Translations under genes and position numbers: made by a program
Shown: in pieces, positions 23,686-62,885 of the stretch
How the letters are laid out: each line of letters starts with the position of its first letter
How positions within the stretch are numbered: the first letter of the stretch is position 1
The notes under the pieces: generated by a model
Seen by the model: the letters and a program-made list of their open reading frames with translations, nothing else
Database searches by the model: none
Told to the model about the DNA's origin: nothing
Assembly: GCA_017656165.1 (NCBI GenBank)
Contig: JACDOL010000003.1
Coordinates: 1 to 64,000, forward strand
Length of the DNA: 64,000 bases
Origin: Desulfotomaculum sp.
GTDB taxonomy: Bacteria; Bacillota; Desulfotomaculia; Desulfotomaculales; Desulfohalotomaculaceae
Direction: 5' to 3'

Positions 23686-25038
23686 TTAGATAATTAATAA
23701 AGTAGCTAAGCCAAAGTAAATTACCATACTGGTAATGTCCATTAATGTAGCTATAAAAGGTCCTGATGCCAGTGCGGGGTCTACCCCAATGCGATTCATT
23801 ATTACTGGAACAAGACTGCCCAGTATTGTTGCTATTACAATTGAAATGGCCAGTGACAGCCCAACCACCAATCCAAGTATTAATGACTGCTGCCACACAT
23901 AAGCCATCACTGACAGCAGGAGTCCACAAACTATACCTATCAATATTCCTACCTGGGTTTCCTTCCAAACCACCGCTAATATTTTATTTCTATTCACTTC
24001 CCCGGTTGCCAGACCCCTTACTACTACTGTAAGGGACTGGGATGCTGCATTTCCTGGACCGCCGGCAAGGGCAGTAATGAAGAAAGCTAATGCAGTCATG
24101 TGTTCCAGTGTTTCAGAGAAATTTTGAATAACATTCCCCGCCAGCAATCCACCAAATAACAGACCAATTAACCAGGGGAGCCTTTTGCCCGCTCTAATCC
24201 AAAAGCTGCTTTCAATCTCCTGGCCTTCAGGTTCTATATTAGCCACCAGGCGCATCATGTCTTCTGTTGCTTCTTCTTCCATTACGTCCATTACATCGTC
24301 AAAGGTTACGATTCCTAAAAGCTGCATATTATCATTAACAACAGGTACAGCTAGAAAGTCATACTTGGACATCAGTTTAGCTACTTCTTCCTGGTCAGTA
24401 CGAACATTAACGCTAAAAACTTTCGTACGCATTATGTCTTCTATCAGTGCACTGGGGTCTGCAATAATTAGTTCCCTTAAAGAAATAACTCCAACCAGCT
24501 GTTCCCGGTCATTTGTTACATATACATAATAAACTGTCTCGGCATCAGGTGCTGTTTTGCGGAGTATATTAATAGCTTCAGCTACCGTTATATCCTGCTT
24601 TACGTCCACATATTCAGTGGCCATTAAGCCACCGGCGGTATCTACATCATAGTTTAAAAGTTCACGAATATCTTCTGCATCAGCAGCTTCCATTAAGCTT
24701 AATAAAATATCTTTTTGTTCTTCCGGCAGTTCACCCAAAAAGTCAGCCGCATCATCAGTAAACATCTGCCCCAGTATTTCGGCGGTACGTTTAGGCCCGA
24801 GTCCTTCCAGCAGTAATAGCACTTCTTCTTTGTCTAACTTAAATAATATATCTGAAGCCTTATCTTTATCCACCATGCGCATTATTTTTATGCGCTGGGG
24901 CAGTGGCAGGGTAGGAAGTAAATCAGCAATATCCACAGCATGCAGATCTCTCAAACACTGGCGAAGTTTACTTAGGGAATTCTGATGCAGGCACTCCAAA
25001 ATTTCCGATCTGTCTTCCCGTTTTAACACAATTGCCAC
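23686..25038 (-). CDS. mgtE: magnesium transporter MgtE
   Basis: HAVDIADLLPTLP, CBS pair, TALAFFITALAGGPGNAASQSLTVVVRGLATGE, PALASGPFIATLMDITSMVIYFGLA; GTG start with AAAGGAG. Confidence 0.97.
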   Translation of the reverse strand: MAIVLKREDRSEILECLHQNSLSKLRQCLRDLHAVDIADLLPTLPLPQRIKIMRMVDKDKASDILFKLDKEEVLLLLEGLGPKRTAEILGQMFTDDAADFLGELPEEQKDILLSLMEAADAEDIRELLNYDVDTAGGLMATEYVDVKQDITVAEAINILRKTAPDAETVYYVYVTNDREQLVGVISLRELIIADPSALIEDIMRTKVFSVNVRTDQEEVAKLMSKYDFLAVPVVNDNMQLLGIVTFDDVMDVMEEEATEDMMRLVANIEPEGQEIESSFWIRAGKRLPWLIGLLFGGLLAGNVIQNFSETLEHMTALAFFITALAGGPGNAASQSLTVVVRGLATGEVNRNKILAVVWKETQVGILIGIVCGLLLSVMAYVWQQSLILGLVVGLSLAISIVIATILGSLVPVIMNRIGVDPALASGPFIATLMDITSMVIYFGLATLLII

Positions 25039-25046
25039 TCCTTTCT

Positions 25047-25142
25047 TTACGGAGCGCCCATAATTACCCCCCAGTAAAGAGGTAAGAATAGACGCCCCTT
25101 AGTTATTTGTTTTTTTTGTAAGCCTCCCGGCTCAGCGTCCAT
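25047..25142 (-). CDS. 31-aa small ORF / candidate leader peptide upstream of mgtE (MDAEPGGLQKKQITKGRLFLPLYWGVIMGAP)
   Basis: AAGAGGAGGTAAGTAA-ATG gives strong SD and start; stop 8 nt before mgtE GTG; below the ORF-track length cut-off. 5' and 3' parts are complementary (GAGGUAAG...GGACGC / GCGUC...CUUACCUC). Confidence 0.65.
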   Translation of the reverse strand: MDAEPGGLQKKQITKGRLFLPLYWGVIMGAP

Positions 25143-25255
25143 TTACTTACCTCCTCTTAAAAAAATTACTGCCTTAATTTACTTTAGTTTTTTATATTTG
25201 GTGTATAACAGGGTGAACTAATTAAATTGCTACATACTGCAGCTAAAAATAATTA

Positions 25256-25283
25256 AGCCTTCGGCAAACGAAGGCTTTCATTC
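25256..25283. terminator. hairpin terminator
   Basis: AGCCTTCGGCAAACGAAGGCTTT. Confidence 0.6.
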
Positions 25284-25336
25284 ATTTATCACCCATAGGT
25301 AGATTACCAACAATTATGCCTGCTGTCAACCGATGG

Positions 25337-60808: not shown

Positions 60809-62449
60809 TTATTTTAATCCCAGCATTTCTATGGCCTGTTCTCGAAGTTTAAATTTTTGCACTTTACCGCTGGCGGTAGTAGGATAATTATCTACAAATA
60901 ATATATACTGCGGAATCTTATAGCGAGCAATTTTATCAATACAATATTCTTGAATTTCTTCTTTTGTACATGATACCCCTTCTTTTAACTTGATAAAAGC
61001 CAGCACTTCCTCCCCGTACTTGCTGCTGGGAACTCCTACTACCTGCACTTCCTTTACCTTGGGATGAGTGTATAAAAATTCTTCAATTTCCCGGGGGTAA
61101 ATGTTTTCTCCCCCGCGGATAATCATATCTTTTAACCTCCCGGTAATTTTTAGGTAGCCATTCTCATCCGCAATACCCAGGTCCCCGGTATGCAGCCAGC
61201 CATCCTTGTCTATGGCCTGTGATGTGCTGACAGGGTCCTTGTAATAGCCTTTCATAACATTGTAACCCCGGGCACAGATTTCTCCCTGCACCCCTGCTGG
61301 AACCTCTTCCCCGGAAACAGGGTCAACAATTTTGACTTCTACATTGGGCAGTGCCCTGCCCACCGTATTAACTCTCAGTTCAATAGGGTCATCTGTTCTG
61401 GTCATAGTTATACCGGGAGATGCTTCAGTTTGACCATAAGTAATGGTAATTTCCTTCATATTCATCTTTTGAATAACTGCTTTCATAACTTCTATTGGAC
61501 AGGGAGCACCAGCCATTATTCCAGTGCGCAGGGATGAAAGATCATAATTCTCCTTATCCACTTCCTCCAGTTCCATTATAAACATGGTGGGTACTCCATG
61601 TACTGCTGTGCATCTTTCTTTTTCTATAGTTTTCAGCACTGCTTTAGGGTCAAATCTTTCCACCGGAACCATTGTGGCACCACTTACTACACAAGTTAAT
61701 GTTCCCAGCACACAACCAAAACAGTGGAAAAACGGTACAGGTATGCACAACCTATCCCTGTAGGTAAAATTTAAACACTGGGCAATGCTTTGAGCATTAA
61801 ATATCAAGTTAGTATGGGTCAGCATAACCCCTTTGGGGAAACCTGTGGTTCCAGAAGTAAACTGCATATTAATTACCTCATCTGATTCCAGGGAGTCCAT
61901 GCGGGCATCCAGTTCTTCCTCGGATACAGTCTCTGCCATGCCCAAAATATCATCCCAGGTTAACATGCCGGGGTGCTTTTTATTACCTAAAAGCACCACA
62001 TTCTTTAACAAAGGCAGTTTTTTACTATTTAGTTGACCAGGCTGACATTCTTTAAGTTCCGGGCAAAGACTGTAAATCATATCAGTGTAACTGGAACTTC
62101 TTGTACCATTAATCATAAATAAACTGGTACAGTCTGACTGTTTAAGCAGGTATTCCAGTTCAAAGGTTTTATAATTTGTATTTACAGTGACCAGTACTGC
62201 TCCCATTTTTCCAGTAGCAAACTGTAAAATTACCCATTGTGGAATATTAGTAGCCCAAACAGCAATATGGTCACCCTTTTTAATTCCCATGGCCATTAGA
62301 CCCCTAGCCACCCGGCGGCACAGCTGGTTAAATTCTTTATATGTGTAGCGCAGGTCCCGGTCTGTATATACCAGCGCTTCATTATCAGGATACATCTTGG
62401 CCATTTTTTCAAGCAAATGTCCTACGGTAATTTTGTCAGGTTTTTGCAT
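60809..62449 (-). CDS. AMP-binding acyl-CoA synthetase (long/medium-chain fatty acid CoA ligase type)
   Basis: MQFTSGTTGFPKGVMLTHTN; YGQTEASPGITMTRTDDP; GWLHTGDLG; GRLKDMIIRGGENIYPREIEE; TASGKVQKFKLRE. Confidence 0.95.
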   Translation of the reverse strand: MQKPDKITVGHLLEKMAKMYPDNEALVYTDRDLRYTYKEFNQLCRRVARGLMAMGIKKGDHIAVWATNIPQWVILQFATGKMGAVLVTVNTNYKTFELEYLLKQSDCTSLFMINGTRSSSYTDMIYSLCPELKECQPGQLNSKKLPLLKNVVLLGNKKHPGMLTWDDILGMAETVSEEELDARMDSLESDEVINMQFTSGTTGFPKGVMLTHTNLIFNAQSIAQCLNFTYRDRLCIPVPFFHCFGCVLGTLTCVVSGATMVPVERFDPKAVLKTIEKERCTAVHGVPTMFIMELEEVDKENYDLSSLRTGIMAGAPCPIEVMKAVIQKMNMKEITITYGQTEASPGITMTRTDDPIELRVNTVGRALPNVEVKIVDPVSGEEVPAGVQGEICARGYNVMKGYYKDPVSTSQAIDKDGWLHTGDLGIADENGYLKITGRLKDMIIRGGENIYPREIEEFLYTHPKVKEVQVVGVPSSKYGEEVLAFIKLKEGVSCTKEEIQEYCIDKIARYKIPQYILFVDNYPTTASGKVQKFKLREQAIEMLGLK

Positions 62450-62510
62450 ACTTATCCCTCCTCTAAACAATCAGAATATTCTGCAAATAATAGTTAAAAT
62501 AATTAGTAAG

Positions 62511-62554: not shown

Positions 62555-62862
62555 GCAAAAAACTCCCGTCCCTGTTAGGGACGGGAGTTTTTTCCCGCGG
62601 TACCACCCTAGTTGGTAGTAAAAATGGTGGAGCTGAGGGGGCTCGAACCCCTGGCCTCTTGAATGCCATTCAAGCGCTCTCCCAGCTGAGCTACAGCCCC
62701 ACGAATTACCCACTCTTGGTGTATATAACGGCCACCAACCGTCATGGAGTACATATCCCCCATGCATCTCAAGGGCGAGTTCAATGTTACGCTCACCGTC
62801 TCGCACCAACCGACGGCTCTCTGAAGAGCTGCACCATTTACTACTCCCTCTCATTGACTTTG
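62555..62862 (-). promoter_or_regulatory. T-box riboswitch (leucine-type specifier CUC proposed), interrupted by a tRNA gene
   Basis: AGAGAGCC stem I motif, GAACUCGCCCUUGAG specifier region, UAGGGUGGUACCGCGGG T-box, terminator GACGGGAGUUUUUU. Confidence 0.93.
62625..62700 (-). tRNA. tRNA-Ala (anticodon GGC), embedded in the T-box leader
   Basis: GGGGCTG/CAGCTCC acceptor, D arm GCTCAGCTGGGAGAGC, CTTGA-ATGGCAT-TCAAG anticodon arm, AGGGG-TTCGAGC-CCCCT T arm, encoded ACCA. Confidence 0.95.
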
Positions 62863-62885
62863 TATCTCATGTTTTGACGCGTTTT

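Follow-up and report, generated by a model that had tools for sequence, protein, structure and literature searches.

A predicted short acidic/proline leader peptide upstream of mgtE in Desulfotomaculum sp. and a candidate class of Mg2+-sensing attenuators in Bacillota

Introduction

How is the Mg2+ transporter gene mgtE controlled in Desulfotomaculum sp., where a short unannotated open reading frame (ORF) lies directly upstream of it? We address this question in a 64,000-nucleotide stretch of contig JACDOL010000003.1 (positions 1 to 64,000; "the window"). Leader peptides that respond to Mg2+ through alternative stems are already known from Enterobacteria. In E. coli and Salmonella, acidic/proline starts destabilise ribosomes, an effect that Mg2+ counteracts, and when the leader is poorly elongated at low Mg2+, more transporter is expressed (PMC11552253, PMC11282234). 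For Salmonella mgtQ, a four-segment switching logic was demonstrated by mutation (PMC8092293). Here, we computed the conservation of frame and start motif, the link of the motif to three importer families, the alternative pairings of the leader RNA, and the accessibility of the mgtE Shine-Dalgarno (SD) sequence as a function of ribosome position.

Results

A 31-codon ORF between era and mgtE

A first-pass annotation of the window had described a 31-codon ORF with a strong SD upstream of mgtE, and the sequence confirms it. Between the era and mgtE genes, the frame opens on the minus strand with AAGAGGAGGTAAGTAA-ATG at 25142 and closes with a stop codon at 25049-25047 (Table 1). The peptide has no Pfam match. 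The spacing of 8 nt first given between the leader stop and the mgtE GTG holds for the first GTG in the mgtE frame (25038, also the start chosen by the ORF caller). That start was dropped because it overlaps the mgtE SD, AAGGAG (25043-25038). From the sequence, the second in-frame GTG at 25029, 17 nt past the leader stop, is probably the mgtE start.

Table 1. Features of the mgtE leader region in the window.
Feature	Coordinates	Strand	Sequence	Basis or behaviour
Probable promoter	25301..25329	-	TTGACA-17-TAATCT	Read from sequence; within the era 3' end
Terminator-like hairpin	25255..25277	-		Between promoter and leader; sequence scan; same order in relatives
Leader SD	25150..25155	-	AGGAGG	Sequence
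Leader peptide ORF, 31 codons	25047..25142	-	MDAEPGGLQKKQITKGRLFLPLYWGVIMGAP	Sequence; start motif kept in relatives; MDx[DE]P enrichment
Segment 1 (leader SD, start codon, first codons to codon 3)	25134..25156	-	GAGGAGGUAAGUAAAUGGACGCU	Predicted to pair with segment 2
Segment 2	25075..25100	-	AAGGGGCGUCUAUUCUUACCUCUUUA	Predicted to pair with 1 and with 3
Segment 2 core	25098-25091	-	GGGGCGUC	Predicted partner either 1 or 3
Segment 3 (last leader codons, anti-SD)	25051..25059	-	GGGCGCUCC	Predicted 2:3 and 3:4 pairing
2:3 pairing partners			GGGGCGUC x GGCGCUCC	
Segment 4 (contains mgtE SD)	25034..25041	-	GGAGUGGC	Predicted paired in naked fold, freed by ribosome at codons 1-7
mgtE, Mg2+ transporter	23686..25029	-		Pfam MgtE 9.9e-36, MgtE_N 2.5e-24, CBS 2.2e-20

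TTGACA boxes resembling that of the probable promoter are also present in relatives; its -10 element is weak, and a strict consensus promoter scan did not list it. In several families, the terminator-like hairpin, GCCTTC...GAAGGC followed by Ts, separates the leader from the probable mgtE promoter. It is present in the window and at L003-L006, L143, L151 and L153, and absent at L134, L138 and L152. This hairpin may act as a further step of attenuation or may terminate era.

Conservation in close relatives

Leaders sit directly before mgtE in two congeners (MDADPGSLRNNQIIKERLNLPLQLQAVTMGAP and MDADPGGLRNNQITKECLYLSCFLKVLMGAP) and in one member of the same family (MDADPGRVNAKQLNSGRLCLPWYAKGAP). 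They begin MDADPGS, MDADPGG and MDADPGR, so that MDA[DE]P is retained. Conservation of the reading frame, which the first-pass annotation had set as a check on this ORF, holds in all three relatives: the frame is intact, with no frameshift or stop, and the acidic/proline start is kept. Over the whole leader, dN/dS in the genus is only mildly low (0.48) because constraint is restricted to the start. Across alignable leader groups there are 82, 59 and 116 changes at codon positions 1, 2 and 3, respectively, with position 3 changing most. Judged from these sequences, selection appears to be concentrated at the peptide start.

Leaders of this kind across Bacillota

We then examined 191 non-redundant upstream regions of MgtE homologues, with dinucleotide shuffles as the null. 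Short ORFs that follow an SD and begin MDx[DE]P are present in 19 of the 191, where shuffles expect 0.02, and M[DE]xxP starts occur in 39, against an expectation of 0.7. With M[not DE]xxP as the control, the count is at chance level (7 vs 5.7 expected), and the reverse complements of these regions contain 0 of any acidic motif. Examples include MDGDPSRQKF, MDADPSRRC, MDADPSNKR and MDGDPGSRK, as well as MDSDPGGKK in Candidatus Formimonas warabiya and MDPGPSSRY in Tepidanaerobacter.

A specificity scan that is independent of mgtE started from the DNA pattern SD + RTG-GAY-NNN-GAY-CC. In 113 genomes of the order it gave 17 matches. Ten are short ORFs, all of them before mgtE (6) or corA (4), and the remaining 7 are internal to longer ORFs. 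Across 399 Bacillota genomes, 47 short-ORF matches were examined, a count that covers the loci retrieved and not every match of the scan. Mg2+ importers follow 28 of them: MgtE (13), CorA (12) and NRMT/PRC-NRMT (3). Pfam was run on ten of these downstream proteins, and the others were assigned by resemblance to those ten. The NRMT assignments rest on two cases. At L263 the downstream protein has a Pfam Nramp match, and its best PDB match is 7QIA (6e-52, vs about 1e-14 for MntH), the Mg2+ transporter EleNRMT (PMC8806188). At L233/L234 the leader precedes a PRC-MgtE_N-CBS gene, and behind this gene comes an Nramp-like gene with VDNDAGG. Many of the short matches with no Mg2+ importer sit within or overlap longer open frames.

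Such leaders occur in more than 20 family-level groups when genome handles are counted. Many mgtE genes lack one, a large number of them in the window's own order, and the same criteria found none at Staphylococcus, Nitrospira and Lactobacillus loci. The motif used to pick leaders requires an acidic residue 2, and residue frequencies in the picked set are therefore conditional on it; the unbiased evidence is the enrichment in the 191 regions and the pattern scans of 113 and 399 genomes.

Two side observations concern this set. At L223 and L225, an MDADP leader precedes a nitrate/taurine-type ABC permease, in an upstream context like that of the mgtE leader L227; this permease is possibly a conserved exception or an unrecognised Mg2+-linked transporter. 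Where serine occupies leader positions 6-8, its codon is nearly always AGT (L006, L011, L051, L143 and others; e.g. CCTAGTAGTCGA), including 11 of 11 serines at codon 6; the TAGTAG run creates stops in the -1 frame.

The position adjoining mgtE is conserved, as would be expected of a small protein, for example membrane-bound, acting on MgtE, which was the alternative offered in the first-pass annotation. Such a regulator should have a conserved body or C-terminus and a constant length. Leaders instead vary freely from 9 to 51 aa, their C-termini are unrelated between groups and, beyond the missing Pfam match, the same start is also found before CorA and NRMT, families unrelated to MgtE. We rejected a small membrane protein on this variability in length and sequence, and give the small-protein reading almost no credence.

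Known riboswitches at the leader

M-box RNAs are known upstream of the same transporter families (PMC4072509) and, like the leaders described here, are found before mgtE, corA and nrmT, in Bacillota too. Unlike the window leader, the M-box is an aptamer that binds Mg2+ directly. None of the Rfam families, M-box (RF00380) included, reaches threshold at the leader, and the best sub-threshold matches are at chance level. At its gathering threshold the M-box covariance model matches nothing in the window, and E-values up to 10 give no match in the leader region. An M-box or other Rfam RNA was rejected at the leader for lack of a match; the first-pass annotation had recognised no M-box consensus, and the Rfam scan it called for agrees.

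A new metal-binding riboswitch, with the ORF incidental or merely relaying the signal of an RNA aptamer, would suit the strong secondary structure of the leader and the presence of M-boxes before the same families. This is very unlikely, given that the window lacks an Rfam match, that an M-box precedes mgtE in only 1 of 20 leader loci, and that the families share a peptide start, free at third codon positions, and no RNA consensus. The one M-box locus (L051, Tepidanaerobacter) stacks an M-box (1111-1279), a terminator, the MDPGP leader (near 1345) and mgtE, which would place two Mg2+ sensors in series.

Elsewhere in the window, a T-box leader (132.9 bits; 62574-62863, minus strand) is followed by an AMP-binding synthetase-like gene (60809-62470). 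The two halves of the T-box antiterminator helix enclose a loop that holds a complete tRNA-Ala(GGC) gene (62625-62700). This nesting could be a real arrangement.

Alternative pairings in the leader RNA

The first-pass annotation had proposed that the SD/start region of the leader pairs with a later part of the same ORF. This pairing is real in the folding model and unusually strong: the leader RNA has a minimum free energy of -50.1 kcal/mol (z = -5.06; 0 of 200 shuffles equally stable). Folding energies here and below are model values at 37 C. Four segments can be distinguished (Table 1). The 1:2 duplex, which joins the SD/start arm to the mid-ORF arm, is predicted at -28.6 kcal/mol, 2:3 at -15.1 kcal/mol and 3:4 at -9.9 kcal/mol. 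Naked window RNA folds as 1:2 + 3:4; with a ribosome placed on codon 5, the window fold forms 2:3 and the mgtE SD is free. One pair of 2:3 is G-U in the window (L001), A-U in L003/L004 and G-C in L005. This covariation is a listing of pairs from four alignable leaders in the window's family (three of them close relatives), a number that gives thin support in the classical sense.

A duplicated arrangement is seen at L007 (G027), where a full leader precedes corA and a second copy, consisting of segments 2-3-4 only, lies directly before the next mgtE. The 3' half of the attenuator seems to have been duplicated along with the corA insertion.

Ribosome position and accessibility of the mgtE SD

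It had been suggested from the sequence that ribosome progress could govern RNA folding ahead of mgtE, and the folding model predicts control of the SD by ribosome position. The modelled cost of opening the window SD is 0.7-1.0 kcal/mol with the ribosome P-site at codons 1-7, the MDAEPGG stretch. It rises to 2.8 kcal/mol at codon 8 and to 3.6 from codon 9, the value for naked RNA (3.6), and drops a second time only at codon 16 and close to the leader end, where the ribosome reaches segment 3.

The same behaviour is predicted on average for 48 different leaders. A ribosome at codon 5 gives a mean gain of 1.67 kcal/mol, vs 0.14 +/- 0.25 in the shuffle null, and naked SDs are more closed than in shuffles (6.35 vs 4.05 +/- 0.30). 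A paired test with a wide ribosome footprint gives p = 7e-9, a value to be read with the fact that related leaders are not independent. A further 18 leaders found by pattern, CorA and NRMT ones included, have a mean gain of 1.44 (null 0.16 +/- 0.33). Exceptions exist: the gain is only 0.1 kcal/mol in the congener L004 and -5.1 in L243 of the second set, and it falls below -0.5 in 5 of the 48. CorA and NRMT leaders match the folding model worse than MgtE leaders.

Simple translational coupling or reinitiation, in which the leader only hands ribosomes to mgtE and senses nothing, accords with the short distance from the leader stop to the mgtE start and with the opening of the SD by ribosomes near the leader end. 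It leaves unexplained the MDx[DE]P start, the three importer families and an SD opening specific to codons 1-7, and some leaders stop 60-90 nt before the gene; we regard it as highly improbable.

Discussion

The window leader is most probably a Mg2+-responsive translational attenuator driven by ribosome destabilisation at an acidic/proline start. We infer that the leader is translated, that Mg2+-dependent destabilisation acts on the window peptide, and the direction of regulation. Translation would begin from the leader's own strong SD. At low Mg2+, by analogy with mgtL and mgtQ, the start M-D-A-E-P would cause early ribosomes to pause or fall apart. A ribosome on codons 1-7 would cover segment 1, segment 2 would pair with segment 3, and the mgtE SD in segment 4 would be left free (mgtE ON). 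With ample Mg2+, the ribosome would run through and release, 1:2 would re-form, 3:4 would pair and the SD would be closed (mgtE OFF). The modelled dependence on early occupancy matches pausing or drop-off at such a start, and switching on at low Mg2+ is also what the physiology of an importer would call for.

The leader has the features of the mgtL/mgtQ kind: a short ORF in which Asp/Glu and Pro come early, its own SD, a Mg2+ importer downstream and, by computation, mutually exclusive stems that expose the transporter signal upon an early ribosome stop. The first-pass annotation had compared MDAEP with the acidic/proline codons of mgtL, a reading that the conserved frame and start, the lack of a known riboswitch and the predicted four-segment attenuator support. 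The comparison stands for the kind of leader; for the architecture, the closest known system is mgtQ, which works by SD sequestration, and not mgtL, which works by Rho-dependent transcription termination.

Salmonella mgtQ, which lies before mgtB, is a short ORF with Asp2, Pro4 and Glu5. Its segment 1 is within the ORF, 1:2 + 3:4 close the transporter ribosome-binding site, 2:3 opens it, and early acidic codons boost transporter translation (PMC8092293), as we propose for the window leader. It differs in being 8 aa long, in lying between mgtC and mgtB and in controlling a P-type ATPase in Enterobacteria, so that the 31-aa window leader before mgtE is not mgtQ proper. Bacillota leaders are usually longer, stand behind their own probable promoter and precede mgtE, corA or nrmT, with no detectable sequence kinship to mgtQ past the acidic/proline start.

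The mgtL leader of E. coli/Salmonella mgtA likewise has an acidic/proline-rich start, with an EPDP motif (PMC11282234), before a Mg2+ importer, and poor elongation at low Mg2+ switches the transporter on (PMC11552253), the same sense as proposed here. It differs from the window leader in the transporter, the phylum and its use of Rho; the predicted SD sequestration explains the output in the window without Rho-dependent termination. Translation of corL, the enterobacterial corA leader, is inversely related to a corA gene; unlike the window leader, corL is poor in acidic/proline residues and Rho-based (PMC11552253). The mgtE motif SRC-65-1 is also a structured RNA before mgtE that includes the SD. 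In the accessible part of its description (PMC11109978), it is reported only from Thioalkalivibrio and proposed as a riboswitch, with no leader peptide described, in which it differs from the window leader.

The same four-segment switch could be driven by slow proline decoding (Mg2+-dependent TrmD/m1G37 or EF-P) and not by the acidic nascent chain. Pro5 occurs in 36 of 52 leaders, mostly as CCT, and proline codons are reported to matter in Salmonella mgtL (Gall et al. 2016, cited in PMC11552253). Against this, some leaders without Pro5 (MDGDG, MDGDS, MDIDS) keep Asp2 and Asp4, and in mgtQ it was the acidic codons, not Pro4, that gave the ribosome-destabilising effect (PMC8092293). The frequency of an acidic residue 2 is imposed by the search motif and is no independent evidence on this point. 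We consider a proline sensor unlikely and prefer destabilisation by the acidic/proline start.

Beyond the window, we think it likely that these leaders form a phylum-wide Bacillota class of Mg2+ sensors, in which an MDxDP start and a four-segment attenuator use ribosome stability to control three mutually unrelated importer families, MgtE, CorA and NRMT. As a counterpart of the M-box, the class would have arisen independently of enterobacterial mgtL/mgtQ or would share an ancient origin with them. In the open-access literature, outside which most subscription papers lie, we found no report of such leaders for mgtE, corA or nrmT in Bacillota, and these relatives of the switch are apparently undescribed.

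If this reading is true, Mg2+ sensing via ribosome stability would be a widespread strategy in a second phylum, beyond Enterobacteria and parallel to the M-box. The dozens of natural leaders with the compact consensus MDxDP would offer material for studying ribosome destabilisation by acidic nascent chains, and the leader motif could help to pick out Mg2+ importers among transporters with poor annotation, much as M-boxes pointed to NRMT.
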